From contig NC_083513.1 in NCBI RefSeq assembly GCF_032362555.1, positions 1,054,001 to 1,118,000 of the forward strand: a DNA stretch of 64,000 nt, given 5' to 3'. The notes under the pieces are model-generated. The model was not told where the DNA came from. It ran no database searches and worked only from the letters and a program-made list of their open reading frames with translations. Of the stretch, positions 4,610 through 64,000 are shown piece after piece. The stretch's first letter is position 1. Each line of letters starts with the position of its first letter. The stretch comes from Amyelois transitella. Taxonomy: Eukaryota > Arthropoda > Insecta > Lepidoptera > Pyralidae. A program made the translations under genes and the position numbers.

Positions 4610-7600
4610 TTAATAAGTTAACCCTCTCTGCTCCAACTTGTCTCTGACTTCTTCAGGCTTTGGCCAGAACAGCATCAATATTGTTGAACCTGTAAAATAC
4701 ATGCATACATATATTATGGTCACGTTTATATCCCTTGTGAGGTAGATAGAGCCAACAGTCTTGAAAAGACTGATAGGTCACGCTTAGCTATTTGGTTTAA
4801 TGATATAATTGAGATTCAAATAGTGATAGGTTGCTAGACCATCGCCTAAAAAGAATCCCAAGTTTGTAAGCCTATCCCTTAATCGCCTTTTACGACATCC
4901 ATAGGAAAGAGATGGAGTGGTCCTATTCTTTATATAAAGACATTCATTAGCATACTGTCTTCCACATTCCACCTTTTATATTCAAACTTCTACTCCTCAC
5001 CATGAGCCGATATGGGTTAGGTTCCCTGCAAAGGTTACGGAGGTCAGACGGGAGTCACTTCGTGTAAAATCCCGACTTACCAATCCAGGAATATAGTTAA
5101 AAGGCACCCAGGGTTCCTGATTTCTGCACCCAGGATTCCTGTTCCTTTCTCCAGAGAAGTCAGAATATAACTGGAAAAGGAAGACACCGGAAAAGGAAGA
5201 AACTAATCCGATTATGATAACACACGCAGTTTCTTAAAACATGCAAATTTCCATATCATGTTTTTGCCGGAAGAGCATCGGTTAGCACTCAAACTAATGT
5301 ATCAAATTGTAGCTGCATTCGTACAAAATATGTTTTTTTCATCCTCAAAATTCAAATTCAAAATTTTTATTCATTATTATAGGATACTTCATATCGCTTA
5401 ATAATTGTCAAAACGTATGGTTTAACAACATTGGTTGTGTCAAATAAATTACTTAAAACTAAGTTTACTGCCGCTTCCAAGGCGTCAGTGCAGAAGAAGC
5501 GGTAACAAACTGCACTGCAGCATTTTCTTCCTCATTAATTAATGAGTCATCATTCCTTATTAACCGCCTTCAGAAAATGAGTTAGTTCTCAATCCGTTTG
5601 ACTTCAGAATCTATAAGGCAATTAAGGAAGAGTACTTACCCATAGTAATGGATCCGAATACGATGAAGGCTGCCAAACAGTGGGTGTTCATGGTGGCTCC
5701 GAGGAGGTAGGACCCCACCGCGGCGCCCGTCCGCCCCACCATGTACATCAAACACATCGCCATAGCTCTGGAGACAAACAGATAGATAGATAGAAAAAAG
5801 CTTTATTCACTATCTGTTTCACTCGTTAAAGTTAAGAATCCACTACAAAATTTTCTCCCTAATCGTGTTGTTACAGACTGGAACAAGCATCCTACGAGTG
5901 TCATAACTGCTCCTTCAGTCAATTGTTTTAAGAATCGGCTAGACAAACTTTTCAAAATCTCCAAGCATCAAAATTCACACGCATCAGCTTAATGAGCCGC
6001 TAGTGTGTTTAAAGTATATAATAATAACTATCACAATACATTTGTTGGACACATACATAATTAACGGTAATAAAAAATGTGAATGTGCAATGTGCATGTA
6101 TGTACCACAAACAATGATGGACAGTGAAAAGGTCCTAACTCAGCATAATATCGCAGGTGTAGACACCGCGGCGCTGATGATTCTGCCAGAACCGTAGATG
6201 AGCTCAGCGAAGCCACACGAAGAGGAGATAAATGTACTAGTTATAGGGCGAGTGTCCTATAAAGTTTGTTAATAGCTCAGCAAAAAAGAAACAAATAAGT
6301 GCGAATGTAATAAATATTTTAATTTACTAGAGCAGAAAGAACAGTAAAAATCTAAATAATAATTATATAGAACAGGTATACATAAAGATACGTACTTATG
6401 CTATTAGTGAATTAGTCACCTGCCTTGCTCACCCTGAGGTGTTTACGGGTGGAGGTGGTTGCAAAAAGATTTCTACTTCACCTAAAGAGTTAGACAGGAA
6501 AATACCTTTAACTGTACCTATAAGGATAAATATAATGATATATTAATCCTAGACTAGAACGGGACTTATCGACACTGCAATATCAGCTAAAGAGGACGCA
6601 GCGCATCCTGAACACAGCGCTTAAATGAGATAAATCGTTTTTCTCCTAAATAAATATCTAAGTAAAGATTAAGAAAATCTATCTATATGTATAAACGATT
6701 AAGATGCTAACCTTAGACAAGTTGGAAATACATCGACTGCAATAGCAGCTAAAATAGAAGCAGCGCATCCTGAACACAGCGCTTAAATGAGATAAGTCGA
6801 TCTTCTCCTAAGTAAAGAAAATGAAAAACTATCTTTATGTATAAATGCTAAAGATGATTACCTTAAACAATTTGGAAATACATCGACTGCAATAGCAGCC
6901 AAAATAGAAGCAGCGCATCCTGAACACAGCGCTAAAATGAGATAAGTCGATCTTCTCCTAAGTAAAGATAATGAAAAACTATCTATATGTATAAATGATA
7001 AAGATGCTAACCTTAGGCAAGTAGGAAATACATCGACTGCAATAGCAGCTACAATAGAAGCAGCGCATCCTGAACAGAGCGCTAAAATGAGATAAGTTGT
7101 TCTACCCCTAAATAAATACCTAAGTAAAGATTAAGAAAATCTATCTATATGTATAAATGATAAAGATGATTACCTTAAACAAGTTGGAAATACATCGACT
7201 GCAATAGCAGCTAAAATAGAAGCAGCGCATCCTGAACACAGCGCTATAATGAGATAAGTTGTTCTACCCCTAAATAAATACCTAAGTAAAGATAATGAAA
7301 AACTATCTATATGTATAAATGATATAGATGCTAACCTTAGACAAGTTGGAAATACATCGACTGCAATAGCAGCTAAAATAGAAGCAGCGCATCCTGAACA
7401 CAGCGCTAAAATGAGCAGAGCTGTAGCAGCTCCCCCTTGTGGGACAAACGCGGCACCCATCGTTGCTACACCACATATTATCATTATACCACCTGAAATT
7501 GAAAAAGGTAATCTTATAAGCAATCGACGGACTCTGTGGCGTAGCGGTAGTAGTGTCTGTGACACCAGGGGTCCCGGGTTCGAATCCCGGCCAGGGCATG

Positions 7601-10600
7601 ATGAGAAACGAACTTTCTCCGATTGGCCTGGGTCTTGGATGTTTATCTATATAAGTATTTATTATAAAATATAGTATCGTTGAGTTAGTATCTCGTAACA
7701 CAAGTCTCGAACTTACTTCGAGGCTGACTCAATCAGTGTTATTTGTCCCGTATATATGTATTTATTATTTATGTGTCGATTAAAAATCATGCATCACACG
7801 CTTAATTCTTAGATTTAACTACATATACCTAGGTATTTCTGATACCTTACAATAAGCAGTGGATTTTCAGCTAGTAACTTTCAAGTTGGATGTAAGAGCA
7901 AAAGAAGCAATCATCTAAATACCACAACAGCATACTTACAGTATAATCTCTTCTTTCCAATCTTGTTGATGAACATGCCAATAGCCAGGTAAGTAAGAGC
8001 GAACACCGCTCCCATAGCCATGGAGATGGGGAACACACCAATTGAAACTTCTACTGTACAAGACGAAACTTCAGTCTGGAATTAAACAATTGTTTTTGAA
8101 CGATAAATCATACAGATCACGCAAGACCTTAAGAAAATTTTGGTTTTCAATATTAAACTCAAACTCAAGGACATATGGTACTTTTTTGTCAATAGTTGCT
8201 AGTCTTTAGCTCTCATCTTTGCAAGTTACCGGTTGGACCTTTCATCGCGTGCTTTGGCCTATGGTACGCTGTTTAAAATTCCTCTGCTCACTTTCCCGGT
8301 TTCAAGCATCCTAGATAACTAGTCCTAGTCCTAGATTTACGAGTCAATGGAGTAAAGACTGTCCTCAGTCTTAACTTAATCAGGACTCGTAAATCCCTTT
8401 CCGCGATGTTTATCCAGGATTTCTTCGACTTGCCCCTTCTGCCAAGGTTAGACTAATTTTCCTGTTTTTAACTTTTTTTCTCGTAATTGCGCCTTGTGCG
8501 ATGTCAAACGAGTTAACATTATTCACCTTTTTTAATTTCTCCATAATGATTTCACAAATAGTTATGCTTTTCTCGCTGGTATTCTTCAAAATATTGTTTA
8601 GAAGTTCCGGTACCCACACGTACAATCCGCTAGATCTGAAATATCAACAACAACTTTTTTTAAAAACATTGCAAAGATTTAAGATTAAAAATAATATTGA
8701 TAGGATAATTAATACTATGCAGGATATGGATAATACAATTAAGTCATTTAGTTTTCAATTATTTACGTTTTTAGCTGCAACTTCAGATGGTTTCGTATAA
8801 TTTGCAAAATTAAAATTATGTGTAATTATAATAACAGTGTAATTATGTGTAATTATAGTGACAGGATGCTAACCCATCGCCTAAAAATGAATTCCAAGTT
8901 TGTAAGCCTTTCCCTTTGTCGCCTTTTACGACATCCATAGGAACGAGATGGAGTGGTCCTATTGTTTTTTGTACTGGTGCCGGGAACCACACGGCACTCC
9001 TTGACAAAGTAGTAGTACTTAATGATATATGTATGAATCCTTATGATAATAATGTGATAATTAATGATTGTGATAATAATATGAAATATAAATTACTCAC
9101 AGCATAAACACAGAGAACATGGATATATGAGAGATGAACACACATCTCAGAAGAGGTGGTCTGAACATCAACCCTATGTTCTTGATGGCTCCCGCGAACC
9201 CAGCTGGTTTCTCGCTGTCCATATTGGTTAAGATAATTTTGTCTACCTGAAAGTATTTACATACGTACATATATTTGTGAAAGTATAGTTACATGGATGT
9301 CGTAAAAGGCGACTAAGGGTTACAAACTTGGGATTCTTTAAGGCGATGGGCTAGCAACCTGTCACTACTTAAATCTCAATTCTATTATTAAGCCAAACAG
9401 CTGAACGTGGCCTATCAGTCTTTTCAAGACTGTTGGCTCTGTCTATCCCGCAAGGGATATAGTATGGATGTCGTAAAAGGCGACTAACGGATAGGGTTAC
9501 AAACTTGGAATACTTTAAGGCGATGGGCTAGCAACCTGTCACTATTTCAATCATAATTCTATCATCAAGCCAAACAGCTGAATGTGGCATCTTTGTCTTT
9601 TCAAGACTGCTGTCTACCTCGCAAGGTACATATAATTATGTGACTGTATGTATGTATGAAAGTATTTAACTACTTTGAAAAAAAACGTAATTTATTGACA
9701 AAGTTGTTGCAACAATTGATATATATTCACAACTTTAAAGGCTTTATGACTTGAACTTTGGACATCAGAGTAACATGGCCTACAATATTTAGATTTACAA
9801 AGCTCGAACTAATGCCTGAAGGGTAAAATCAGGAATAACTAAAACAAGGTGTCAAATAGTTATTCAATATTTAGCCATCTAAAGAAAACTCTATAAAAAC
9901 ATTTTTTGCTTTGATGAAAGCAAAAAAATGTCATTGCTCAAATCATGGGAACTTCTATGATATGAACAATGTTAAATCTAATTCTATAGCATGTGATCAC
10001 ACTTTCAATAACACTTAATTTATAAGATCAATGAAACCTCAACTCTCGTCTTTACATGAACAATACAAAACATTGCAGACTTATGTATATGTTCCACTAG
10101 AGGCCGCCCGCGACTTCGTCCGCATGGAAACCCTATCAATACCGCGGGAACTGCGGGATAAAAAGTAGCCTATATGTTATTCTGGGTCTTCACTATGTTT
10201 TTTCTTCAGAACCAAACCGTCATGGAAGCTTCTTGTAGTTTTATGTGCGCCTATCCCTTAGTCGCCTGTTAAGACGTCCATGGAAAAGAGTTGGAGTGAC
10301 CCATTATCTTAATCGGCGGGAACCACACCATCATTAAGCCATTCACAGCTAAACATGGCCTTACGAGACTATTGGCTCTGTCTGCCACGCAAGAGATAAC
10401 AAACATACGTACATACATATGGTCACGTCTATATCCCTTGCGGGGTAGACAGCCAATAGTCATGAAAAGACTGAATGGCCACGTTCAGCTATTTCGGCGC
10501 AAGAGATAAAGAGATATGTTTGTTTATTCAAAATACTATACCAACATAAGAAACTTACAGGAAACTGATCAGCCGAAGCTCTATGGTTCCACGAATACAT

Positions 10601-13600
10601 CTTGGCCAAAACAGGCAGGGCTGCATCAGGCCCTTTCGCTGACAGCAGATACCGAGGACTTTCAGGTAGGAACAGCAGAAGAAGAGCCGCCACCAGTCCA
10701 GGGGCACACCAAGACCAGACGAATGCCCTCCACGGTACCACTGTGAAGCTGAACAGTGCGAAAGACCACTTGCCAGGAATTATCAGCCAGGCGAGACCTG
10801 TAACAAAATAATGGAAATAGATAACCAATATGTTTTACATACATACATAAAATCACGCCTCTTTCCCGGAGGGGTAGGCAGAGACTACCTCTTTCCACTT
10901 GCCACGATCTCTGCATACTACATACATATAATCACGTCTATATCTCTTGCGGGGTAGACAGAGCCAACAGTCTTGAAAAGATTGAGAGGCCACGTTCAGC
11001 TGTTTGGCTTAATGATAGAATTGAGATTCAAATAGTGACAGGTTGCTAGCCTGTCGCCTAAAAGAAGAATCTCAAGTTAATTAGCATATCCCTTAGTCGC
11101 CTTTTACGACATCCATGGGAAAGAGATTGATAGAGAGCAATATGTTCTAGTATTCTTTATACTCTCAGCTCCTGCGCTTTGGACCCTGGGGTCCATTGAA
11201 GTATATTAATTAGGGTAACATTATACAATTTATTTTATTTTGAGTATCATATGCGCGATTCATGATATTTGTGTAATGAACAATTCTCAATGATATGTGT
11301 GTCACCATAAGCTACCACCATAATTGAATCCTGAAATTAACGTAACCATTTTTACGTTAATTTCAGGATTGACACTTCATATCCTGGATTAATATTAATA
11401 TTTGGATTCGTATTAATATTTGGATTTTTTTGTCTAAATCATCTTAATTCTCTCATCTAAACTCGACAGAAGGCGAGCAACGATATTGACCGCCAAGATC
11501 AATTGATTCCGATATAAACATTTCTAGTGGATAATCTGATACTGTGCCGACCCCACGTAGAAAGTGGGAAAAGGTAGGTAACGACGAAGAAGAAGAATCT
11601 GATGATTATACTTATCTAAATCTACGTAATAAATGTATACTAATATTATAAAGCTGAAGAGTTTGTTTGTTTGTTTGAACGCGCTTATCTCAGGAACGAC
11701 TGGTTCGAATTAAAAAAATCTTTTTTCGGTAAACCATTCGGCAGACCATTTATCGAGCAAGGCTTTAGGCTATATAACATCACCCTACAACTATAGGGAG
11801 CAAAGAAATAATGGAAAATGTGAAAAAAAAAACGGGAAAAATTATTCATCCTTGAGGGCTTCATTGATAACCAAAATAATTATTCCACGCGGACAAAGTC
11901 GCACTTATGTTAAAAATCCTATATATTAGTCCTATATTTTCCTGCTCATCTTTATAAATATTTTTTTCTGTTACTATCAGAACTGTACGAATGATCATAA
12001 CATTCTGAAGGTTACCTGGTAATGTGATGAAGGAGAACGAAATGAAGACCGAACCCCAGGCTATGGCGGACGCTCTTCTTGAATTCATGTGCATTTCTCC
12101 TAAATACGCGTATACTGTAGCACTGGAAGCTGACACGCTGAAACCAATTTTTCGGAAAAATATTGTGATCATGTTTGGACGTAGACACAAATTAAAATGC
12201 ACGGCAGATAATATACTCGTAAATAATAAACATGTAGATACATAGACACACAATCACGTTTTTATCCCTGACAGCAAACAGAGCCAACAGTCTTAAAAAG
12301 GCTGAAAGTCCACGAGATTTCAATATTGGGAAAGTATTAACTGTCATGAAGACTAAACGAGTGTTTATATCTTTGAAATAAACATAATAGAACAATTTAT
12401 TTGAGGGCAACATTTTGCAGCTTTCTAAAAACAATGACCAGAATCCAATAATCTTTATTTGATCTGATGTTACTCAAACAATGAATTTAAAGAAAGAAAG
12501 AAGATTTGAAATACTTACAGACATCCAGTCAGCATTCGAAGGAACATTAGCATCCACACATCAACGGCGAAGGAGGATGCCACTGAGAAGACAGCTGATG
12601 CCAACAAAGCTGGCAGCATTACTGCTCTTCTGCCCACCCTGTCTCCGAAGTAACCCCATAGGAACGACGTGCTTATTATACCTGAAAAAGAAGTAGTCTT
12701 CAGTTCTTCATGGTTCTCTTTGCGCAAATCACCTTTCCATTTTAATTTCCTTCCACCCTAAGGTGGACTGAAAGAGATTGCTTTAGCGATAATTCCGCCT
12801 TTGTACCTCATTACCTTTTTTAACCTCATTGCCTTTTTTAGCCTCATTGCCTTTGTACCTTAATTTTATTTTATTTTTTCTTATGGTGCAATTAAGAGTC
12901 TATCTGTTTGTATATCTTGATCATTATTAATACTTTTTACTTTCCGAACGATATGGCTGTATTTTTAAAACCGGCCCGATTCTAACGCTCTTTAAGAATG
13001 CGATTCAATGGAGCAGCTTTAGTCGCCTTTTCTGATAATTGTGCATACATCCTTCCTCCAGTATATGTCTAAATACAACCCAATAAAAGCAGCAGCATTG
13101 AGCAATCTCTTATATTCACTGGTAAGGTTGAGTTCATATTTAGCAGCGGTGATAGCATAGCTCATTCGGACAGACTCCATGGAGAGTTTCAGCAAAATAA
13201 GGTCATTGGTAAGGTAGATAGATAGATAAAACTTTATTTTACCATAAGAGTAAAACATACAAAACAGCACAAAACAGACAGAGATGGTACATAGGCTTGC
13301 AAAACTATGTAGCTTCAAACGCTAGTGGATTAAAATTAAGTGATCCATTGGCTGAAAACGTCTACGCAGTTTAATATGTCTGGTTTACACTTCCATAGAG
13401 CTACAGGTTGTATCATTTGTCATATTTTGCCTTTTTCTTCTTCCTTCTCACTTTAATCCCGTCCTCACTTCTTCGAAGCTGGGATCCGCCGGTGACTACA
13501 CGATCATGAGTTGGGTTGCTCACGTTCTTAAATGAAGCGACTCCCGTCTGACCTTCGCAGCTTTTTCAGGGAAACCTTACCGATATAGGCTCATGATTAC

Positions 13601-16600
13601 GCATCCTGTCACATAAATGTGTAGGTTTTCCCACGAAGTTTTTCCTTGTCTGACAGCATCGGTTGAAAGCAGAAGCAGCTTGAAATACGACAGGCATAAA
13701 CATTAGTTAGGTACTTCCCTGTCTGAAACACCAGACAGAATTGTCCGTCTACTATAAGGTCATCTAAAGAAGTAACTACGAACCAATAAAAGCAGCTGCA
13801 TTGACCAATCCCTTGTGTTCACTGGTGAGGTTGAGTTCACATTCAGCAGCGGTGATAGCGTAGCTCATGCCGACAGACTCCATGGACACGTTCAGCATAA
13901 TGAGGCCGCATGTAAGTAGTACTATGTAGTTGAAACGGCCATGACCTGTAAAGGGAAATACTGAATAAATATTTTTTTTTTGGAATTTGAATTTGGAATT
14001 TGGTAGGCCTTGGTGCCGTGTAGTTCTCGGCACTTAAGAATAGGACCACTATAGGTCTCCCGGGCTGTGAAGAGGAGCGCCAGGCAGACCGTAGCGGCAC
14101 GAGGTCAAACCTCAAGATTGAAATAGAGAAACCATGTTGGTGACATTTCAGGAAACAACGTCAAAGGCTTTTTTAGAAAATTTAAAGCTGACCCACTTGA
14201 CAACCATTTGTCTCAAGGATTACCTACTAAACTGTAAGTAAGTCTGCCTAAAACTTATTCAAATTTTGACATATTAAGTGGACACTTTTATCGCCTCTTA
14301 CGACCATCACTGAAATAAATCATGGTTTAATTCAAGAAAATTGAGCACTCAATTATTTTTTATATTCGAACTCTGAACCAGTGGTCAAGTTGATACAGAT
14401 TAAAAGATTTTAGCAAATCTGACGAAATTTCTTTACTATCCAACAATGATCAACTTCTAAGATGAAGAGTGTAATAAAGACGTCAAAGATATGATATTGT
14501 GATTAAGACAACAAATTATGATGATCCAAACTTGTGATTTGACAAACAATAACTACTATATCATTGATAATTTATGAAATATTAATTCGCTGGCTGATAC
14601 TTTTAAAATAAATTAAGATGTCACAAATATGATGACCCAAACGAATGATTTGACAAATAAAAGCAACTACATACATACATATGGTCACGTCTATATGCCT
14701 TGCGGGGTAGACAGAGCCAACAGTCTTGAAAAGACTGATAGGCCACGTTCAGCTGTTTGGCTTAATGATAGAATTGAGATTCAAATAGTGACAGGTTGCT
14801 AGCCAATCGCCTAAAAAAGAATCCCAAGTTTGTAAGCCTATCCCTTAGTTTCCTTTTACGACATTCATGGGAAAGAGATGGAGTGGTCCTATTCTTTTTT
14901 GTATTGGTGCCGGCAACCACACGGCACATATCAATGATATAGTTTGTGAAATGCCAATTCGCAACGGAATGGCTAATACTTTTAAGATCAATGAAGACGT
15001 CAAAGATATGGTGACCCAAACCAATGATTTCACAAACAATAACTACTATATCATTGATAATTTGTGAAATGCCAATTCTCGTAGAAATGGCTGATAATGC
15101 ACACTTGCTTAGAAAGTAAACATGATAAGAACTGAGTTGACCGACTTTAGCGCCGATCGATAGTGTACGCGGTACTTTCTCTAACACAGACCAAAGTACT
15201 CTAAGTACAGTACACTTTACCAACTGCACTTTCTACGCGGGCTCGGCACAGTATGTTAGTTTTTTCCAATTACTTCTGTCAATTGCCATCTCACTGGTCA
15301 CTCCCTTTCTCCTCATACTATCCTTTACGCCGTCCATCCATCTCTTTTTCGGTCTTCCCCTATTTCTTGAACCTTTCACTACTGTCCTACTTCTCTCTCA
15401 TAGGGACTAAATTCAAATTCAAATTTTTTTTTATTATTATAAGATACTTCATATCGCTTAATAATAATAATTGTCAAAACTTTTAGTTTCACAACATTGG
15501 TTGATGTCAAATGAATTACTTAAAAACTTAGTTTACTGCCGCTTCCAAGGCGTCAGTGCAGAAGAAGCGGTAACAAAATGCACTGCAGCATTTTCTTCAA
15601 AAACGTCAACTTGACAAATATCCAAACTAAAATCTAAGTAGAATGTGACAAGTCCTGTTATTTCAAAACTATTAACACTTTTGTTCATGTATTTTTATTC
15701 GGACAGGTGGCTTACTCGCCCTTGGTGACTGGTTCCAGGGACGATTTGCTACCTATTATAATAATTTGGCGGCCGGGTTCCAAACCATGTTTTACGGTTC
15801 CAGGGAGAATATGCCACGTATTAAAATAATCTTATTTTCACCTGGTTCTTATTAACTATCACGATTTCAACCTCATTTGGGCGTATATACCAGAATGGCC
15901 GAATTGGCTGAAGTGAACCATAATTTTGATTTGTGACATTAAATGCTCCATTAGCGCCGTGTGGTTCCCGGAACTTTAGAATAGGACCACTCCATCTATT
16001 TCCCATGAATGTCGTAAACAGCGACTAAAGGATAGTCTAATAAACTTGGGATTCTTCTTTTAGGCGATGGGCAAGCAACCTGCCACTATCTGAATTACAG
16101 TTGCATCTTTAACAGATGAACGCGGCTTTTCAGTCTTTGTAAGACTGTCAGCTTTGTCTACCCCGTAAGGGATAAAGACGTGATTGTATGTATGAAGTTT
16201 AGATGCATTTTGAAAATTAAAAAAAAATTGCAACTGTGAATAATTCTTCTGCTTGTAAGTAGGTATACTTAGTAATCCTATACCTAAGGTATCTACAATC
16301 TGATAAAACTAAGTGTAATGACTGTTTAAGTCGGTGAAGGCCTACTAAACCTTTAATAACACGCGGTTCGGTACTGTGGTTATGGCCAGACCGGTTGGAA
16401 ACTGCGCGTATGTTATTAAATCTATCAACGTCTTGTTTTGTTTTTTCCTTAACAGTCGCTACTTGATCAACATATACCTGATTTATAAGCTTGGCGACAT
16501 GATCGTTTATGTTTGGATCTAAAACAGAGATAGAATAGAATATAATAGATTTATTTCAAAATTATTTCCGAAACCGCCGAGCTTGCATGAAGAGAGTTAT

Positions 16601-24650: not shown

Positions 24651-27600
24651 ATGTCAAAATTCGAGGACGCGTTTGAATTAACTGGTAAGTTTAAGCTTTT
24701 ATTTACAAATTCATTCATTCATTCATATAGTCACGTCTATATCCCTTGCGGGGTAGACAGAGCCAAAAGTCTTGAAGAGACTGGTAGGCCACGTTCAGCT
24801 GTTTGGCTTTATGATAGAATTGAGATTCAAATAGTGACAGGTTGCTAGCCCATCGCCTAAAACGAGAATCCCAAGTTTATAAGTCCATTCCTTAGTCGCC
24901 TCGTACGACATCCATGGGTAAGTGATGGAGTAGTCTCAGTAACAGTGCATATAAATATTTTAAGTGTAAGTGCTCTTAAATTATTTATAGTTAGTTATAG
25001 TACTAGTATCTAACAGTGCCGTGTGGTGTCCGAAACTTTTATAGAATTATTCTGTTAAACAGTACATACATATAGAATAATTATAAACAATCTATCCGAC
25101 GGCCTCTGTGGCGCAGCGGTAGTACGCTTGTCTGTTACACCAGAGGTCCGATCGATTTGACGTAACGAATAAACTTAAAAATACGCTAAACCGATTTCGT
25201 TTAAATTTGTTACACAAATAGAATAGACCTTTAGGAATAACATAGTGCTGAATCTAGTCCGGAATAATCTTCCAGGTTATGGATGGTTCAATCACTTAGT
25301 GACCTTTACATCAGGACTGGTACTCCTTTACACCATGGAGGAGTCCCTGGGCATAGGATACATCATGACGGTGGCTGAGTGTGACCTGAACCTTACGGTC
25401 ATGCAGAAAGGGTTGATCAATTCAGCGGCTTTTATCGGTCAGTCAATTATTTAGTTATAAAGGAAACTTCTATAAAGTTCTCGGCACCAATAGAAGAAGA
25501 ATAGGACCACTCGTAATTTAAATTACTCGGCTTGTAAACTTGGGAGCTAAATTCTATTATATAGGATACAAGGATAAAAAATCATTAAGCCAAACAGCTG
25601 AACGTGGCCTATCAGTCTTATCAAGACCGTTGGCACTGTCTTCCCCGCAAGGGATATATATGTGTATGTATGTAAACTACTATTAGGTAGCGAAACCCTA
25701 AATTAAAATTCAAAATCACAATTAAAAATTAAAGGTTCGCGCAGGCGAAAAGCTGTGAATCAAAGCCATACTTATATAATAGAGTGAGCTTCTTCACCTG
25801 AAAATATTTCAAATGTTCTGACATAAATGGCCGTTTGGATACGATACAAGCATCGATTGCTGTATTCTTTTGTGTGTTGTATTATAAAATAGATGAAGAT
25901 CCAAGACCCGAGGTGAAATAGTTCGTTTCTAGTCATGCCCTGGTCTAGATTCGAACCCGTGATCTTGTTTTCAGGTATCCTTTCAACCGGCATATGGTGG
26001 GGCTACCTGAGTGATCAGTACGGTAGAAAGAGGGTCATGTTGCCTGCACTCCTCACATCTTGTGTCATCTCTTTCTCTTCTACATTCTCCACTAACTTCA
26101 TTTCTATGTTCTTGCTTCGGCTTCTCACTGGATGTTTGTAAGTTGTTGAGACAAACGCCTTGTTATTTATTTATAGTTAAACACGTATATCGATTTTTGC
26201 TATTTTATTTTGACAGGCGCTTAAGCCGTAGTGTACCTTCTCGGTTTATTAAATACTTAGAATACGTCCCCGTACTAATAGAATAAAGAACGGGACCACC
26301 CCATCTCTTTCCCAAGGATAACATAAAAGGCAACTAAGGGATATGCTTATAAAACTGGGATTCTTTTAATTCTGTTATAAAGCCATACAACTGAATGTGG
26401 TCTTCAGAGACTGTTGGATTGATATTCAAAAAACGATAGGTTAGTCCATTGCTCACATGAGGAATCCTAAATATATAAGCCAATCCCTTAGTCGCCTTTT
26501 ACGACACCCATGTGAAAGATATGGAGTGGTTCTATTCTAAAGTGCTGAAAACCAAACCAACAACACTTAACAATTTAAAATACTTTTGTCTTTACAATAT
26601 TGTAAACTTAATTTATGACAAAAGTTATAATTTCAGAGTGTCAGCGTCCAGTGCAACAGTATTCGCTTACGTTGGAGAAATGCACGACAACACCAGAAGG
26701 TCTACGGCCATCATGTATTCTTCTACTGCTATTGCTGTCACATTCATCATATTGCCAAGTGGGTTCAACTGGTTTTCCTACTATTAGTAGATGGGCAATG
26801 TGTCTGTGCCGTGTGATTCCAATAATAAAAAAAAAAAGGACCATTCCTTCTTTTTTGCATGGATGTCGTAAAAGGCGACTTAGGGATAGGCTTAATATAT
26901 ATATAGGAAGGAAATCCTAATCCTAGCTATTTAACGTAGGTAGTATAAGAATAATCCTGGTTACAACCTCACCCGTACGGTACAGAGGGGTTAGTGCGAG
27001 TTCTACTCGCTCAAACGCGTCGAGCAAGTAAACGTTTAACGCGAGTTTGTATGGAGTTGCATTAGTGCCATCGCGTTACCACCAGATGGCGCTGATCAAA
27101 TCACATACAAATTCGCGTTTACTTGCTCGACATATACATACATACTTATGGTCACGTCTATATGCCTTGCGGGGTAGACAGAGCCAACAGTCTTGAAAAG
27201 AATGAATGGCCACGTTCAGCTATTTGGCTTAATGATAGAATTGAGATTCAAATAGTGACAGGTCGCTAACCCATCGTCTAAAAAAGAATCCCAAGTTTGT
27301 AAGCCTATTTCTTAGTCGTCTTTTACGACATCCATGGGAAAGAGATGGAGTGGACCTATTCTTTTTTGTATTGGTGCCGGGAACCACACGGCAGCTGACG
27401 TTTGATCTAATAAAACTGGCACCAACCCCCCCCAGGTCTTTGAACCAGAATCCTGGATTAGATAAGTCAAGTTGTCACACGAAGCTACTGTCGTTTGAAC
27501 TCATTTGCAGGGAAAATCATGATCCCTTAATCGCCTCTTACCACATCCACGGGAAAGCGATTGCGTGGAAAACGTGTCTTGTCTATTGTTGAACTCACAA

Positions 27601-30600
27601 ACAGATCTTATTAAAGTACCGTGTGGTTCCCGACACCATTACAAAAAAGAATAGGACCACTCCATCTCTTTCCCACGGATATCGTAAAAGGCGACTAAGG
27701 GATAGGCTTATAAACTTGGGATTCCTCTTTTAGGGCAATTGGCTAGCAACCTGTCACTATTTGAATCTCAATTCTATCTTAAAGCCAAATAGCTGAACGT
27801 GGCCTTTCAGTCTTTACAAGACTGTTGGCTCTGTCTACCCCGCAAGGGATACAGACGTGATTACATGTATGTATGTATGTATCTAATTAAACTCATTTAC
27901 AGTCCTGGGCTGGATAATCCTCAGCGATACCTGGTCATACAACCTTGGCATAATCACGGTCACACCTTGGAGGGTGTTCATGTGGACCTGGTTATTCCCT
28001 GGTCTGCTAGCAGCCCTCATTCTGGTGTTCCTACCTGAGAGTCCAAGGTTCCTCCTGGCCAATAAAGGGCCGGAGGAGGCGAGGGATGTCCTGGCGCAGA
28101 TGTACGCGAAGAATTTGAAGAAGAAGAAAGAGGAATATCCTGTGAGTGTTGGATAATGAAGTTTCTTCTTTTTCTGATAATTTTTATGTGATCTCCTTAA
28201 TGTGCCTTGTGGTTCCCGGCACCAATAAATAAATAGTAATAAATAAAAAAATATTTATAAAGAGTATAATGCAACGTGAAAGTTTTAAATCGTAAATAAG
28301 TAAATTTTAGATTAAAATGTGAATCCGTGGTGATAGTATTGTTCACTCTCTGTTTTAGTTGTCTCCTACGATGTCTGATTGTCCCTAGTCTACTCCTAGA
28401 TCTATACTATCTATACTTATAGGTATTATAAAGCTGAAGAGTTTGTTTGTTTATTAGAAAGCACTAATCTCAGGAACTACTGGTTCGAATTGAAAAATAG
28501 ATACGATATACCATTTATCGAGGAAGGCTTTAGGCTATAAAACATCACGCTGCAACCATAAGAAGCAAAGAAATAATGGAATATGTGAAATCTGTATGAT
28601 GAACTTGAGGGCTTGAATGATGCCCAAAATAACTATCCCACGCGGTCGAAGTCGCGGGCACAGCTACTACTTAATAAATTGTTCCAGGTAAAAACAATAT
28701 CTGACGCTGCAAAAGTTGCCACAAAACACGGGTTCAAAGTCGCGTTCACGAATCTGGCCCACCTGTCCAAACCACCACTACGCCGCTGCGTTCTATTGTC
28801 ACATACCAGCATGTTCATGATTTTCATGTTGTGAGTACCTCCTTTATAATCAAGTGAGTTATGGATCGACGGGTTGTTTATGAGATCTTTTTAATTTTGG
28901 TAGGAGTGGGAAGGCCTAGACGAACGTATCTTGATCATATTAAGGACGTCCTGGCAAAGGGTCAGGTCAAGATTACCCGAAACCGCCGAGCTTGCATGAA
29001 AAGAGTTATGAATGTGGATGAAGCGAAGGAAGTATGCAGTGATCGTGGCAAGTGGAAAGATGTAGTCTCTGCCTACCCCTCCGGGACAGAGGCGTGATTT
29101 TATGTACCTATGTATGTATGTATGTTTTCATTTTCCAAAATTTATACTACCATTTACTTGGCTGATAATCACGATTACCTAAACGATGACCACATCGTAA
29201 AAACCAATATAATCCTAATTCCTAAAAATAACCTTAAAAAAATCTTTTGTTAAAGAAAACCGCGTCCAATCGATATCTTCCTTCTTCGAAGTCGTTAAAT
29301 TATTTAAATTATCAAAACACTTTACTCATCAAAATCGGTTCAACGCAACGCGAGATAATCGCGGACATAAGACTATGGTTCCCGAGGAATTTGCGAAAAA
29401 AACCTGTATTCTTTTGTTGGTGACGCTAAATGAATGCATGTAAGTGGCGCTAAGCTAATACTCAGTTATACATTAGACATACATACATACATATGGTCAC
29501 GTCTATATCCCTTGCGGGGTAGACAGAGCCAACAGTCTTGAAAAGACTGAATGGCCACGTTCAGCTATTTGGCTTAATGATATAATTGAGATTCAAATAG
29601 TGACAGGTTGCTAGCCCATCGCCCAAAAAAGAATCGCAAGTTTGTAAGCCTATCCCTTAGTCGCCTTTTACGACATCCATGGGAAAGAGATGGAGTGGTC
29701 CTATTCTTTTTTTTATTGGTGCCGGGAACCACACGGCACAATTTATTTACACAAATTATACATTAGATAAGATAATAATTGAATTAAAAATTATTTCTAG
29801 AAATAGCGGCCTTTACACGTGGATGCCTGACATTCTTCATGTGGTATTCATGAATTTCGACTCGGAAGTCAGCATGTGTGAGGTCATGATGGATAATTAT
29901 GCCAGTAAAGATGTAAGTAAAGTATCTGCCGTGTGGTTCTCAATGGAGGACATATATTTAGTGACGTCTATATCCCTTGCGGGTTAGACAGAACCAACAG
30001 TCTTGAAAATACTGATAGGCCACGATCAGTTTTTTGGCTTATTGTCAGAATTAAGATTTTAACTGTATCAGATTGCTAGCCCGTCGCCTTAAAGAAGAAT
30101 CCCAAGTTGATAAGCCCTAACCCTTTGTCGCTTTTTACGACATCCATGGAAAAGAGACGTAAGAATTATAACTGTTTCTTTATAAATATGACATGTAAAT
30201 TACAGCTCCTTAGTCATATGTATGTCAGGATATAAAACGCGCACGTAACGTACGAGTACCTTTATTTTATCTCGGACGTTTCGAAGAACGTTACAATTAT
30301 ATTTTTAAATAGCACTGTCACGGAAAACGTTGTTTTGCCATATTAATATTTTTTAAGTATTTTCTAATTTAACAACCCCTATCACTAAGGGGTATGAAAA
30401 ATAAATTGGCAAATTCTCAGACCTACTCAATATGCTCACAAAATTTCATGAGAATCGGTCAAGCCGTTTCGGAGGAGTACGGGAACGAACATTGTGACAC
30501 GAGAATTTTATATTATAATATCTAATCCAACGAGAAAGTTTAGTATCGGTCATATTTCAGAGATGGTCATGTGGAGAGGATGAATGAAAGCAGGTTGACT

Positions 30601-33190
30601 AAGCAGATATACAGGGAGAGTGTGGAGGGAAAGGTCGGGGTGGGAAGACCTAGACGAACGTATCTTGATCAAATTAAGGACGTCCTGGTAAAGGGTCAGG
30701 TCAAAAGTACCCGAAACCGCCGAGCTTGCATGACGAGAGTTATGATTCTGGATGAAGCGAAGGAAGTATGCAGAGATTGTGGCAAATGGAAAGAGGTAGT
30801 CTCTGCCCACCCCTCCGGGAAAGAGGCGTGATTTTATGTATACATGTATGTATATTTCAGAAAACCACCAGCTTGACATTTCCCCTCTCGGAATCCAAGA
30901 GTTGTGATGAGAAGCTGGTCCACTTCATGGTGTACCCCACGTCTATGATCATGGGTATAATGTGCGCCGTTTGCTACGTAGCTATCGGGCAAATTGTGAG
31001 GAAATACAGCAAAATCAAGTTTTATTGTAAGTTATTTTGTTTGTGTGTACCTAGTGCCGTGTGGTTCCCGGGCACCAATACAAAAAAGAATAAAGACATA
31101 CATTCATACATATATATGTCACGTCTATATCCCTTGCGGGGTAGACAGAGCCAACATTCTTGAAAAGACTGAACGGCCACGTTCAGCTATTTGGCTTAAT
31201 GATAGAATTGAGATTCAAAAAGTGACAGGTTGATTACCCATCGCCTACAAGAAGAAGCCCAAGTTTGTAAGCCTATCCCTTAGTCGCCTTTAACGACACC
31301 CATGGGAAAAAGATGGAGTGGTCCAATTCTAAATAGACGGGAATCACACGGTTAGCAAAAGCGATGAATTTCACTAACAATATTATGATTTTGACTAATA
31401 TATCTTGTCCAGGTGTCATGCTAGCGTCTTGCAGCATAATTCTGGCTATATCAGCCGTGATAACCATACCGTGGTTGGCCGTGATGATGTTCATAACAGG
31501 GGTATGCTCAGGCGCCACGGCGTCCTTGCTTTCGGCAATATCTGTGGAGGTGTTCCCTACAAATGTCAGGTAATTGCTTCGATTGTTAGTTGGAACGAAA
31601 CCCCTATATTGCACGTAAATTTGTAATAAAAAATTTGACCTAAACTTATGATGAGTTAAAGAAAAAAAGGCGGACAAGAGCATTTCGCGAGAGAGATTTT
31701 GGTGCGGGGTAGAGTGTTTTTTTTTCTATTCATCCATATAATCACGTCTGTATCCCTTGCGGGATAGACAGAGCCAGCAGTTTTGAAAGGCTACGTTCAG
31801 TTGTTTAACCTAATGATAGAAATAAGATTCAAATTGTGACGGCATGCTAGCCCATCGCCTATATGAAGAATCCCAAGTTTATAAACTTATCCCTTAGTCG
31901 CCTTTTACAACATCCATGGTAAGGAGATGGAGTGGTCCTTTTTTATATTGGTGCCGGGAACCACACGGCATTTTTGTTGCTTTACGTGTATTGAAAAGGT
32001 GTCGTCTCCTGCCTGTCAATTATTTGCCTCAGGGATTTCATTGTAAGTTTTGTTTGTTTGTTTGTAAGTTTTCGTTTTTCAGGGCACTGGCTTTATGCAC
32101 GTTGTATATGTTCGGACGTCTCGGCGCCGCTGTGGGTTCAAATTTGATTGGTGTGGCTGTTCACCAACACTGCCAAGTGTTATTTCTCACTATGACCTTA
32201 GGAACAGCTGGTAAGTTGTCCGAACAATATCTGTATATGCATGTATGTATGTAGGTACATACATACATGCATATAATCACGTCTATGTCTTGTCCCTTGC
32301 GGGGAAGACAAAGGCAACAGTCTTGAAATGACTGATTGAGCCACGTTTAGCTGTTTGGCTTAATGATAGAATTGAGATTCAAATAGTGACAGGTTGCTAG
32401 CCCATTATCTAAAATAAGAATTCCAAGTTAATAAGCCTATCGTATACCGCCGAGCTTGTATGAAGAGAGTTATGAATGTGGATGAAGCGAAGGCAGTATG
32501 CAGAGATCGTGGCAAGTGGTAAGAGGTAGTCTCTGCCTACCCCTCCGGGAAAGAGGTGTGATTTTATGTATGTTTGTATGTAAGCCTATCGTTTAGTCGC
32601 CTTTTACGACATCCATGAGAACGAGATGAGTGAATCTATTCGTCTTAATTTTATTGGTGCCGGGAACCACACGGCAACTGCAATATTTTGTAAAGTGCCT
32701 GTCGAATACCATATAACATGTAGGCAACCATCTTGCTAGACGCCCTTAGCAACGGTTGCTATGGTTTTGTTAGTCAGAGATATGTCAAAAAATAATTTTT
32801 ATTGTAAAAGCTTCTCAATTATTATGTTCATAATATAATTATTTTAAACTGATTATTTTCTCCTCTTTTCTCCTTCTTTCTTCTGTAGGAATAAATAACT
32901 TTTAATATATTATACTTCCTACAAACATAACTAATATTATATTAACTTATAACTTACATTAACTGGTATAATAAATTTCCCCGTTTTTGTCACATCCTAG
33001 ATAAATGGTCTATTCAACACAAAAAGAATTTTTCAATTCGAACCAGTAGTTCCTGAACAAACTAACTCTTCAGCTTTATAATATTATAGTATAGATATTA
33101 ATGATTTCAGCATCAGTTCTGCTGATGTGTCTATGGCCGGATCCAAAGTTGGTGCGATCTGATATGGAACAGCATGGCTTCGGCTACTAA
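24651..33190 (+). CDS. Gene B: SV2-like MFS transporter, 11 exons, 501 aa
   Basis: Exons: 24651-24684, 25276-25437, 25975-26137, 26637-26758, 27903-28141, 28688-28830, 29801-29912, 30861-31026, 31413-31569, 32083-32210, 33111-33190. The total is 1506 nt with all phases consistent. Exons 2, 3, 4, 5, 9, 10 and 11 have exactly the lengths of their gene A counterparts (162, 163, 122, 239, 157, 128, 80), so A and B are close structural paralogues. The N-terminus is short (MSKFEDAFELTG). The MFS motif GYLSDQYGRKR is at residues 75-85 and PESPR at 205-209. The protein is expected in membranes as a 12-helix solute transporter of the SV2-like group; the ligand cannot be read from sequence. The stop codon overlaps an AATAAA at 33189-33194, a possible poly(A) signal leaving almost no 3' UTR. 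The start is chosen by the conserved FEDAFE motif and the phase of intron 1; a further non-coding 5' exon is possible. Confidence 0.92.
24712..24945 (-). mobile_element. S1 short element in intron 1 of gene B
   Basis: TCATATAGTCACGTC to GGGTAAGTGATGGAGTAGTC. Begins about 25 bp after the exon 1 donor. Confidence 0.78.
25100..25150 (+). mobile_element. S2 SINE head fragment
   Basis: GGCCTCTGTGGCGCAGCGG with the A-box region, cut off before the B box. Confidence 0.65.
25468..25680 (+). mobile_element. S1 short element, internally deleted
   Basis: TCTCGGCACCAATAG to GGGATATATATGTGTATG. Starts about 30 bp after the exon 2 donor of gene B. Confidence 0.7.
25868..25960 (-). mobile_element. S2 SINE fragment next to exon 3 of gene B
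   Basis: Reverse complement of the S2 B-box region (CATGCCCTGG, GATTCGAACCC). About 15 bp of other sequence separates it from exon 3 at 25975. Confidence 0.68.
26265..26545. mobile_element. S1 fragments, opposite orientations
   Basis: A plus piece (ACGGGACCACCCCATC) is followed by a minus piece ending GTGAAAGATATGGAGTGG. Confidence 0.6.
26800..26900 (+). mobile_element. S1 5' end fragment
   Basis: GTGCCGTGTGATTCC to GGCGACTTAGGGATAGGC, starting about 45 bp after exon 4 of gene B. Confidence 0.65.
27020..27130. repeat. Short inverted repeat (hairpin) element
   Basis: TCGAGCAAGTAAACG at 27020 is matched by its reverse complement ending at 27130. The arms extend imperfectly through ATACAAA(C/T)TCGCG. 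The loop carries ACCAGATGGCGCT. It may be a tiny MITE. Confidence 0.7.
27131..27393 (-). mobile_element. S1 short element, full length, intron 4 of gene B
   Basis: CATACTTATGGTCACG to GGGAACCACACGGCA. It forms an inverted pair with the copy at 27617. Confidence 0.86.
27617..27882 (+). mobile_element. S1 short element, full length, intron 4 of gene B
   Basis: ACCGTGTGGTTCCCG to (TATG)n. It ends 20 bp before exon 5, so the (TATG)n tail sits by the acceptor. Confidence 0.86.
28411..28668 (+). mobile_element. Non-autonomous Helitron, intron 5 of gene B
   Basis: TTATAAAGCTGAAGAG to GGGCACAGCTACT. Its end is about 19 bp from exon 6 (28688). Confidence 0.82.
28895..29125 (+). mobile_element. LINE-a 3' end
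   Basis: Encodes GRPRRTYLDHIKDVL and the NRRACMKRVMNVDEAKEVC region, typical of the C-terminus of a non-LTR reverse transcriptase polyprotein. Ends CGTGATTTTATG plus (TATG)n. Confidence 0.78.
29475..29742 (-). mobile_element. S1 short element, full length
   Basis: ACATACATACATATGGTC to GAACCACACGGCAC; ends about 60 bp before exon 7 of gene B. Confidence 0.86.
29950..30165 (-). mobile_element. S1 short element, diverged
   Basis: TTTAGTGACGTCTATATCCC to GACATCCATGGAAAAGAG; starts about 40 bp after exon 7 of gene B. Confidence 0.7.
30370..30525 (+). repeat. Interspersed repeat with GAATCGGTCAAGCCGTTTCGG
   Basis: The block AACCCCTATCACTAAGG, TTTCATGAGAATCGG, AGCCGTTTCGGAGG and GTGACACGAGAATTTTATA is one I recognise as widespread in Lepidoptera. 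Class uncertain. Confidence 0.55.
30558..30852 (+). mobile_element. LINE-a 3' end, longest copy
   Basis: About 85 codons of open frame (start DGHVERMNESRL, then GRPRRTYLDQIKDVL, ending VVSAHPSGKEA), then CGTGATTTTATGTATAC. The tail abuts the acceptor of gene B exon 8 (30861). No catalytic RT domain remains. Confidence 0.82.
31050..31350 (-). mobile_element. S1 copies: small plus head and full minus element
   Basis: 31050-31092 is the plus-strand 5' head; 31095-31350 is a minus copy from ACATACATTCATACATA to GAATCACACGG. Confidence 0.78.
31728..31972 (-). mobile_element. S1 short element
   Basis: CATCCATATAATCACG to GGGAACCACACGGCA; intron 9 of gene B. Confidence 0.8.
32252..32682 (-). mobile_element. 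S1 element interrupted by a LINE-a insertion
   Basis: The S1 halves are 32252-32443 and 32581-32682. The insert 32444-32580 is a plus-strand LINE-a tail (137 bp). TAAGCCTATCGT flanks it exactly on both sides (32432-32443 and 32581-32592), a 12-bp target-site duplication. Confidence 0.9.
32975..33094 (-). mobile_element. Helitron end fragment
   Basis: CCCCGTTTTTGTCACATCC to CTTTATAATATTATAGTATAG. Ends about 16 bp before the last exon of gene B. Confidence 0.7.
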
Positions 33191-34829: not shown

Positions 34830-35228
34830 ACAAGCTGTGCCCGCGACTTCGTCCGCGTAGAATAGTTATTTTGGGCATCATTGAAGCCCTCAAGGATGAA
34901 TAATTTTCCCCGTTTTTTTTCACATTTTCCATTATTTCTTCGCTCCTTATAGTTGCAGCGTGATCTTATGAGTATATAGCCTTAAACCTTCCTCGATATA
35001 TCGTTTTTTCAACGCAAAAATAATTTTTCAATTCGAACCAGTAGTTAATGAGATTAGTGCGTTCAAACAAACAAACTCTTCAGCTTTATAATATTAGTAT
35101 AAACTAAAGCCTTCCTCGATAAATGGTCTGTTCAACACAAAAAGAATTTTTCAATTCGAATCAGTAATTCATGATATTAGCGCGTTCAAACAAACAAACT
35201 CTTCAGCTTTATAATATTAGTATAGATG
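34830..35228 (-). mobile_element. Helitron plus partial tandem second copy
   Basis: 34830-35100 is complete in reverse (AAGCTGTGCCCGCGAC to AATATTAGTATA). 35105-35226 repeats its outer end, as after head-to-tail insertion. Confidence 0.78.
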
Positions 35229-41300: not shown

Positions 41301-44300
41301 TGGTTTCTTTGCAATTCTACTGTGCCGTGTGGTTCCCGGCGCTAATAAAAAAAAGAATAGGACCACTCCATCTCGTTCTCATGAATGTCGTAAAAAGCGA
41401 CTAAGGGATATACCCCTTGCGGGGTAAACGAAGCCAATAGTCATCAGAAGACTGAAAGGCCACGTTCAGCTGATAGCCGTTGGCTTAATGATAGAATTGG
41501 ATTTTTGTAGACTTAAATATATTCATAAAGTCACGTCTATAACTCTTGCGGGGCAGACAGATCCAACAGTCTTGAAAAGACTGAAAGGCCACTTTCGGCT
41601 ATATGGCTTTATGATACATACATACATAAAATCACGCCTCTTTCCCGGAGGGGTAGGCAGAGACTACCTCTTTCCACTTGCCACGATCTCTGCATATTTC
41701 CTTCGCTTCATCCACATTCATAACTCTCTTCATGCAAGCTCGGCGGTTATGATTGAGATTCAAATAGTGGTATTCTATTCTGTTGCTGTCTCACCGCCTA
41801 CAAGAGGAATCCTAAGTTTATAGCATATCCCTTACTCACCTTTTACGACATCCATGAAAAAGATAATGGAATGGGAACTTAACCTTCTTCTAATTCCTTC
41901 AAAAATAAGCTTAATAAATTCTTTCTCGAGTCTTGAATTGGTTTTGAAGTTAATTTAGAATATATACATGTTTATATATTTACTTTATTTATTTATTTGT
42001 ATTTTACGTATATAATTGTTGTGTCTTAAGGATAATTCTAGTAAAAGAACTGTTGTTCACCCTTGCCTCAATTTTGTTTATGATCCTCTTATTGTCAGGT
42101 TGGCTGGAAGAGATCCCACTTAGGGATAAGCCCGCCTTTGTACTGTACTGTTTTTATTTGTAATGTACTCCTTTAGTAAACAATAAAGCATTTACTTACT
42201 TACTTATTTTTGTTTTCAGGTAATGGCCTCTACAACATCCTCCTGGTGGCGGCCAACTCGCTCATACTCCTGGCCATCATTATGGACCTCTTCGGGTTCA
42301 CTCTCATCGTCAACGTGGCCTGTGACCTGAGACTCACCATAGCTCAGAAGGCCATTCTCTCTTCTTTTCCCTTTATAAGTAAGAACAGTTTTATTTCGCT
42401 TAAAAAAAAGTTAGTTTTATTAGAAGGTGCGCTCTTTGTATTCTTCCTACTTGACCATCAGCATAAATCTGTTTGATTTGGATCTCATGGTGAACGTGGC
42501 TTGTGATCTTAGGCGTAAAAGGCGACTAAGGGATAGGCTTACAAACTTGGGATTCTTATTTTACGCAATGGGCTAGCAACCTGTCACTATTTGAATCTCA
42601 ATTCTATCATTACGCCAAGTAGCTGAACGTGGCCATTCAGTCTTTTCAAGACTGTTGGCTCTGTCTGCCCCGCAAGGGATATAGACGTGACCATATGTAT
42701 GTATAGGTATGTAATAATATACATATTTTTTGTTCTTCCCTGACTTGGCATTTAGTCTAAAACTACAGGTGAAGCAAAGACTTTCTTAATTGTTTAAAAG
42801 TTTCCGTTTCCAAAAAGATATTTACGACACAGCTCTCAGAAGCCTCCAGTCAAAAACAAGAACATAACTGCAGAGCCCATGAATTTATTAAATCTATACT
42901 AATATTATAAAGCTGAAGAGTTTGTTTTGTTTGTTTGCTTTGTTTGTTTGTTTGTTTAAACGCGCTAATCTCAGAAACTACTGAACCGATTTGAATAATT
43001 CTTTCACTGTTAGATAGTCTATTTATCGAGGAAGGCTATAGGCTACATTTTATCCCGGATTTCCTACGGGAAACGTCAACAATGCAGGTGAAAGTTGAAT
43101 GAGTCGGCCATCTGCGAGCTTTCCACGCGAACGCTGCGCAAACCAACAAAGATATAGAAAAACAATGTACTAAAGATGTGAAGTACTCATTTTTTGCCAC
43201 AAAAAAGTCCGCGAGAGCATATATCTATCTCTTAAGGTTTACTTACAATAACCACTTTTATGTTCATTTTTTAAGATTATTTTTTCATTATAAACATAAG
43301 TTATTTTGAAACCAATTTTCTTTAATTCAGTATTAATCCTTATCCAAATAAATATGTTTATTACTTTCGGCTTTTCATGTAGACTAAAATTGCCATTTAC
43401 AGTATATAAATCAGACGAATAGGTTTTGAGATATAGTCGTTATAAGCAATTTGCAGCGAAACATTTAATACGGCGAACCAGCGTTCTTTCTAATACGCGT
43501 GACCGCCTGACCGCCTGAGGAGGATGTTTGCAAAAATAAATAAATATGATGCCCAAAATAACTATTCCACGCGGACGAAGTCGCGGGCACAGCTAGTACT
43601 TTTATACACATCGAGTATTATTACCTACGTCTTTATCTATTTAGACTCGAATAGAAGTTCTAATAGTGAGAGATTGCTTTACATCATCAATCTTGATTTG
43701 ATTTACATCATCAATAATCACTTATAAGAAGAATCGCAAGTTTTAAATCTTCTCCTTGATTAAATTTAACGATATTCGTGGCACCTGGCACATATAATGA
43801 TTTCTCTTCACTACCAGTATCTTGCACTAGATAAACTTGACGACTTGCCTCAATTTTGTAGGCGATCCTCTTATTGTCAGGTTGGCTGGAAGAGATCCCA
43901 CTTAGGGATAAGTCCAGCCCTTTGTACTGTACTGTTTTATATTTGTAATGTATTCCTTTAGTGAACAATAATGCATTTCAAACTCATTTACTGATATTAT
44001 TGCAGGCATCATCGTTGTATCTTTTGCGTGGGGTTACATATCGGACACTAAAGGCCGTAAGTTCACCCTCGTGGTGTCGCTGCCAACAGCGTTCGTCCTC
44101 TCGTGTTTGTGCAGTCTGTCTCCGAACTGGATTGTGCTGGGAGTCCTGAAGTTCCTGTCTGTTTGTTTGTATGTTCATTTGTTACAAATACAAATACGCC
44201 GTGTGGTTCCCGGCACCAATGAAAAAAGAATAGGACCACTCCATCTCTTTCCCATGGATGTCGTAAAAGGCGACTAAGGGATAGGCTTACACAATTGGGA

Positions 44301-63671: not shown

Positions 63672-63747
63672 CTGGTACAATAAAGAAACACCTGGTACAG
63701 TAAATGTTTCTTATTCTTAATTTAATATTGAGAAAAAGAAATCCAAG

Positions 63748-64000
63748 TGTCGTGTGGTTCCCGGCACCAATACAAAAAAGAATGGGACCACTCCATCTCT
63801 TTCCCATGGATGTCGTAAAAGGCGACTAAGGGATAGGCTTACAAATTTGGGATTATTTTTAGGCGATGGGCTAGCATCCTGTCACTATTTAAATCTCAAT
63901 TCTATCATTAAGCCAAATAGCTGAACGTGGCCATTCAGTCTTTTCAAGACTGTTGGCTCTGTCTACCCCGCAAGGGATATAGACGTGACCATATGTATGT
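63748..64000 (+). mobile_element. S1 short element, running to window edge
   Basis: GTGTCGTGTGGTTCCCGG to CGTGACCATATGTATGT at the last base. It lies in the intron upstream of the first visible gene D exon. Confidence 0.86.

Follow-up and report, generated by a model that had tools for sequence, protein, structure and literature searches.

The window analysed here is a stretch of 64,000 nucleotides of Amyelois transitella contig NC_083513.1. Its left part carries, on the minus strand, an SV2-like MFS transporter gene (gene A), whose exons 2-11 (4610..13945) were joined into one open frame of 479 codons that runs to a stop. These exons lie at 13784-13945 (exon 2), 12519-12681 (exon 3), 12016-12137 (exon 4), 10559-10797 (exon 5), 9101-9246 (exon 6), 8527-8635 (exon 7), 7940-8075 (exon 8), 7336-7492 (exon 9), 5640-5767 (exon 10) and 4610-4689 (exon 11). 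The predicted product matched the Pfam families MFS_1 (E 9.8e-36) and Sugar_tr (E 2.1e-19) and, among solved structures, SV2B (1.9e-30) and SV2A (4.5e-28), and it is assigned by these similarities to the SV2-like transporters of the major facilitator superfamily. Two paralogue-like genes that also appear to encode SV2-like MFS proteins were found on the plus strand at about 25276-32210 (gene B) and about 42220-49540 (gene C). When the first six exons read in gene B were compared with those of gene A, four had equal lengths (162, 163, 122 and 239 nt), and the other two measured 143 against 146 and 112 against 109 nt. A further SV2-like MFS gene, or exons of one, was seen at about 60300-63800 on the minus strand in the list of open reading frames alone. 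The SV2-like MFS genes and exons of the window look like a cluster of paralogues. A protein search of viral contigs yielded no relative, and neither viral nor prokaryote contigs contained an exact match to a 26-base word taken from exon 9.

Exon 9 of gene A is 157 nt long, with the acceptor CAATTTCAG and the donor AAG/GTTAGC. Downstream of it, inside intron 9, its last 70-80 nt recur five times as 5'-truncated copies, which follow one another in steps of 162, 162, 150, 150 and 162 nt counted from exon 9. Tandem Repeats Finder reported the array at 6658-7415 (period 162, 4.9 copies, 90% matches) with a score of 1076, which is far beyond chance. The homology begins 10 nt before the 70-nt copies, at CTCATTTTAG, and the first 77-87 nt of exon 9 are missing from the copies. 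Copies 1-4 matched exon 9 by BLAST over 80 nt at 95-98.75% identity, and copy 5 over 56 nt at 89%. The sequence-only reading of this DNA had described five partial copies at a period of 150-162 bp, and the coordinates, count, period and phases were all confirmed. Its statement that four of them keep an open frame and a GT donor is true of copies 1-4; copy 5 is broken.

All units lie on the minus strand and follow exon 9 in this order. Spacer 0 (7244..7335, 92 nt) runs from GTTAGC to ATTATAG and is open in the frame of exon 9. Copy 1 (7174..7243, 70 nt) differs from exon 9 by one synonymous change and has the donor GTAATC, and it is followed by spacer 1 (7082..7173, 92 nt), which has in-frame stops. 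Copy 2 (7012..7081, 70 nt) carries four changes, three of them synonymous and one L to V, and the donor GTTAGC; spacer 2 behind it (6932..7011, 80 nt) has a 12-nt deletion and an open frame. Copy 3 (6862..6931, 70 nt) carries three changes, two synonymous and one T to N, with the donor GTAATC, and spacer 3 (6782..6861, 80 nt) has the same 12-nt deletion as spacer 2 together with in-frame stops. Copy 4 (6712..6781, 70 nt) is identical to exon 9, has the donor GTTAGC and precedes spacer 4 (6620..6711, 92 nt), in which in-frame stops also occur. Copy 5 (6550..6619) is a decayed edge copy with 22 differences from exon 9 over 70 nt in an ungapped comparison, a 2-nt insertion that breaks the frame, and no donor. 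Every spacer (5/5) begins with GT and ends with AG, the duplicated segment supplying both donor and acceptor. The open frames themselves are little proof of coding function, because random single changes in the segment created a stop in only 2.6-4.3% of cases, and by arithmetic from this rate a fraction of about 0.74-0.83 of neutral sets would still be stop-free after seven changes.

The donors alternate along the array, GTTAGC following exon 9 and copies 2 and 4 and GTAATC following copies 1 and 3. From this alternation a duplication step of two units had been proposed. The alternation does suggest such a step, but other shared changes contradict one simple history: the 12-nt deletion is common to spacers 2 and 3, and ATTTTCTTAATC is common to spacers 1 and 4. 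Among the 11 informative columns, 37 of the 55 pairs were incompatible with one tree, a count that is inflated by linked neighbouring columns and part of which could be due to recurrent change. These conflicts suggest exchange between repeat units.

A search for similar events elsewhere compared 26 exons (10 of gene A, 9 of gene B and 7 of gene C, a few with approximate borders) with the window at E 1e-3. No array was found in the window for the other 25 exons of the three genes. However, intron 2 of gene A contains, at 13081-13202 on the minus strand, a 5'-truncated copy of exon 2 that comprises the last 122 of its 162 nt with 87% identity. This copy is followed by a donor-like GT region and sits downstream of its parent exon. 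In genes B and C, none of the 16 exons searched, among them the counterparts of exon 9, had such a copy in the window. The exon 2 copy is probably an earlier, solitary case of the duplication seen at exon 9. Two truncated-copy events in gene A point to recurrent mutation and away from an array by design.

Splice-site strength was scored with a small position matrix trained on sites of genes A, B and C in this window (23 donors and 25 acceptors), a set that includes the acceptors of exons 9 and 10 and excludes the donor of exon 9. The acceptors of exon 9 and of exon 10, the next exon past the array, scored 15.2 and 10.6 (both belong to the training set), and the five junction acceptors of the array 3.6, 5.0, 4.5, 3.2 and 3.1. 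In left-out scoring 4 of the 25 true acceptors fell below 5.0. The junction acceptors are thus weak, yet they still score like the poorer of the true acceptors. The claim that an AG acceptor had been made at the junction could not be upheld, as TTTTAG/CG is exon 9's own coding sequence. Since the AG was already present in exon 9, where it scores -0.1, the junction improved the upstream context only, raising the score to 3.1-5.0. Other AGs inside copies 1-4 (TATTGCAG and similar) scored 5.8-6.3, above the junction acceptors. The donors scored 3.7 (GTTAGC) and 2.6 (GTAATC); in left-out scoring 2 of the 23 true donors fell below 3.7, and ten other GTs in 5700-7520 outscored the best donor of the array. 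Selection of copies by RNA pairing was also considered. Two 18-nt inverted matches join the polypyrimidine tract of exon 9 (7496-7513) to the GTAATC donors (7168-7185 and 6856-6873, 14-15 of 18 positions complementary, copies 1 and 3 being homologous), but they are at chance level: an equal or better match appeared in 39% of 100 shuffles of the stretch from exon 9 to copy 1. The overall fold had a z of -1.76, with 1 of 20 shuffles as good.

The consequences of each splicing choice for the reading frame were then calculated. It had been argued that one copy of about 70 nt in place of exon 9 (157 nt) keeps the frame, and this holds: each of copies 1-4 alone, replacing exon 9, removes 87 nt, or 29 codons, and leaves the product in frame and 29 residues shorter. 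The companion argument, that adding one copy after exon 9 shifts the frame, was borne out for all four single additions. When copies 1-4 were added after exon 9, the normal end was kept in none of the 15 possible sets. In the four single-copy additions the stop falls in the last exon, and in the other 11 sets, with two or more copies, an early stop arises 132-308 nt before the last junction. Stops that far before the last junction commonly trigger decay. Of the 11 sets that lack exon 9 and contain at least two copies, none reached the normal end. Two read-through forms, which the sequence-only reading had not listed, stayed in frame. In one, exon 9 is extended via spacer 0 to the donor of copy 1, which adds 54 residues and ends at the normal stop; in the other, a continuous stretch of copy 2, spacer 2 and copy 3 substitutes for exon 9, which adds 21 residues. 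Longer extensions of exon 9, ending at the donors of copies 2-4, run into a TAA within the GTAATC of copy 1. Translation across all spacers was ruled out by the in-frame stops in spacers 1, 3 and 4.

Variation was compared among exon 9 and copies 1-4, the decayed copy 5 being excluded. Variable columns numbered 7 of 70 in the coding part and 19 of 80 in the gap-free spacer (Fisher P 0.031), or 20 of 92 with all spacer columns (P 0.056); once linked neighbouring columns of the same split were merged, the counts were 6 coding and 12 spacer (P 0.31). Synonymous and non-synonymous changes were also compared, as the sequence-only reading had proposed. Five of the seven coding changes were synonymous, against 28-32% expected (one-sided binomial P 0.022-0.037 at transition weights 1-3), and 4 of 6 without the column common to copies 1 and 3 (P 0.056-0.085); the remaining two of the seven alter the protein. 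We also ran simulations matched on spacer variation, with 42-250 kept runs per setting and with conversion in most settings. At most seven variable coding columns were obtained in 0.4-4% of the kept runs when no selection acted on the copies, in 0-2.7% when it acted on exon 9 only and in 56-94% when it acted on every copy. The three models, in the same order, yielded a copy that matches exon 9 at all 70 nt, as copy 4 does, in 0-2%, 0-4% and 3-22% of runs. Selection on all copies produced 98-100% synonymous change, against the 5/7 observed. These simulations assume independent single-base changes at a uniform rate, an assumption that the linked spacer changes violate; though crude, they hint at a better fit of selection on the copies. 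Selection on exon 9 only, combined with gene conversion, was tried as the cause of the low coding variation but did not reproduce it in this crude model, and the identity of copy 4 to exon 9 is likewise left unexplained by conversion as modelled. Coding constraint on the copies is a hint and not a demonstration, because the numbers are small, the tests post hoc and the changes linked, and no model fitted all features.

The anatomy of the array, the conflicting histories along its unit, the decayed edge copy and the arithmetic of splicing are read directly from the DNA, and the following mechanism is built upon them. We hypothesized that a duplication unit crossed the border between exon 9 and intron 9, taking about 80 nt of the coding end and about 70-82 nt of the intron start, and that this unit expanded to five extra copies, between which unequal exchange or gene conversion caused some shuffling. 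The break would have fallen just upstream of an AG within exon 9, so that each copy boundary would join a GT...AG pair, with a proto-intron of 80-92 nt between proto-exons. The strong acceptor of exon 9 would pair with the exon's own nearest donor, and the copies would leave with intron 9, although single copies or the donor of copy 1 may possibly be used on rare occasions. On the whole, we consider it probable that the array arose by a tandem duplication across the exon border with later shuffling among its units, and that it is carried along in intron 9 and for the most part removed by splicing. Three options had been offered at the outset, namely a splice decoy, a shortened isoform and a neutral duplication. 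Of these, the neutral one agrees best with the evidence taken together, because the acceptors are weak, all 15 additions lose the normal C-terminus, the edge copy has decayed and a second truncated copy occurs in intron 2. The short isoform is possible as far as phase is concerned, and it is slightly favoured by the variation data.

If one copy did replace exon 9, the transporter would lose 29 residues, about one helix, and the coding parts of the copies would be under selection as alternative mini-exons. The matching phases, the open copies 1-4 and the retention of all four donors agree with such a role, as do the 5/7 synonymous changes, the lower variation of copies than of spacers, and the simulations with selection on all copies, which best reproduced both the low coding variation and an exon 9-identical copy. 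Nevertheless, we regard these mini-exons as unlikely, given acceptors of 3.1-5.0 against 15.2, the little diversity that four near-identical copies would add, a product presumably without one helix, a rate difference that was not significant after merging linked changes (P 0.31), and two protein-altering changes among the seven, which is above the strict-selection simulations. The copies might instead compete for the donor of exon 9 or the acceptor of exon 10 and so lower or regulate output, as a decoy or poison array. The weak exon 9 donor (3.7) with four near-equal donors behind it would suit such competition, and so would the early stop in all 11 sets of at least two added copies; but the candidate acceptors are weak and the four single-copy additions, stopping in the last exon, would not trigger decay, which leaves this role comparably doubtful.

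An extended exon 9, running through spacer 0 to the donor of copy 1 and adding 54 in-frame residues with a second copy of the helix, seems very improbable to us. The 162-nt step is a multiple of 3, spacer 0 has no in-frame stop and the reading reaches the normal end; however, the donor of copy 1 (2.6) is weaker than that of exon 9 (3.7), and the stops in spacers 1, 3 and 4 mean that the whole array is not coding. Finally, near-identical tandem repeats are hard to assemble, and the number or order of the repeats could be wrong in the assembly. Such an artefact is given equally little credence, as the units differ by substitutions and a 12-nt indel, so that several of them at least are real. Our preferred reading remains the boundary-spanning duplication that is mostly removed with intron 9.

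The known case closest in form is the RdRp gene of potato, in which a new intron was created by a tandem duplication across the boundary of an intron and an exon, with the acceptor inherited, a cryptic exonic donor recruited and the splicing shown by RNA reads (PMC4974935). Both cases share a border-crossing duplication in which one splice site is inherited from the parent intron and the other is cryptic in the exon. In potato, the 3' end of an intron and the 5' end of an exon were duplicated once and a cryptic donor was used (PMC4974935), whereas here the 3' end of an exon and the 5' start of an intron were taken, with five extra copies and a candidate cryptic acceptor. The exon 9 array would be the mirror image of that intron gain, and repeated. 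Exon tandem duplications producing introns are also described from Drosophila (PMC2891723). These gains and the AGGT model of Rogers, as described in PMC4974935, resemble our array in that a duplicated proto-splice site makes the intervening sequence a possible intron; they duplicate exonic AG/GY motifs in coding sequence (PMC2891723, PMC4974935). The exon 9 unit, unlike them, contains a piece of a genuine intron and is itself located within that intron.

Arrays of mutually exclusive exons consist of whole exons with their own acceptors. The copies of exon 9 differ from these in being 5'-truncated, nearly identical and without acceptors of normal strength, and they are putative exons. As with mutually exclusive exons, any one of copies 1-4 alone keeps the frame; copy 5 is without a donor. 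Homologous exon copies in a row are common to our array and to such systems (PMC9741552); Dscam is one example of them. Intronic VNTRs that are reported to affect splicing, such as that of ABCA7 (PMC5954066), share with the array the position of a tandem repeat in the intron of an expressed gene; here, by contrast, the unit includes the 3' end of the exon together with its donor. Among the titles and abstract openings listed in a literature search, none names an array like that of exon 9, which is no proof that none is in print.

The array offers a natural series of putative proto-introns (80-92 nt) and proto-exons (70 nt), with 4-5 repeats and small differences in one gene. If transcripts show that copies are used, it would capture exon or intron gain at an intermediate stage, with replicates inside the gene itself. 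If they show no use, it would indicate how effectively a normal exon that has a good acceptor keeps out near-identical neighbours sharing its donor. Were the mini-exon reading true, the spliceosome could choose one copy at a time, and tandem duplication would have made out of half an exon a set of alternative exons that is functional and redundant.

Some minor features of the window were also recorded. An Rfam scan at gathering score gave one tRNA match outside the array and no RNA family in it. About 40 nt upstream of the exon 9 acceptor, at about 7530-7790, lies an interspersed repeat with a tRNA-like start, which we take to be SINE-like; ARAGORN called no tRNA there. Similar peptides recur in the window's list of open reading frames, and the sole tRNA call of the window (55027-55099) falls within such a repeat-like stretch. 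Inside intron 9, at 5786-5992 on the plus strand, there is an open reading frame that presumably resembles the end of a LINE protein, and TATC repeats adjoin the acceptor of exon 10. At 34983-35224 a 123-bp tandem duplication is present in two copies with 90% matches.
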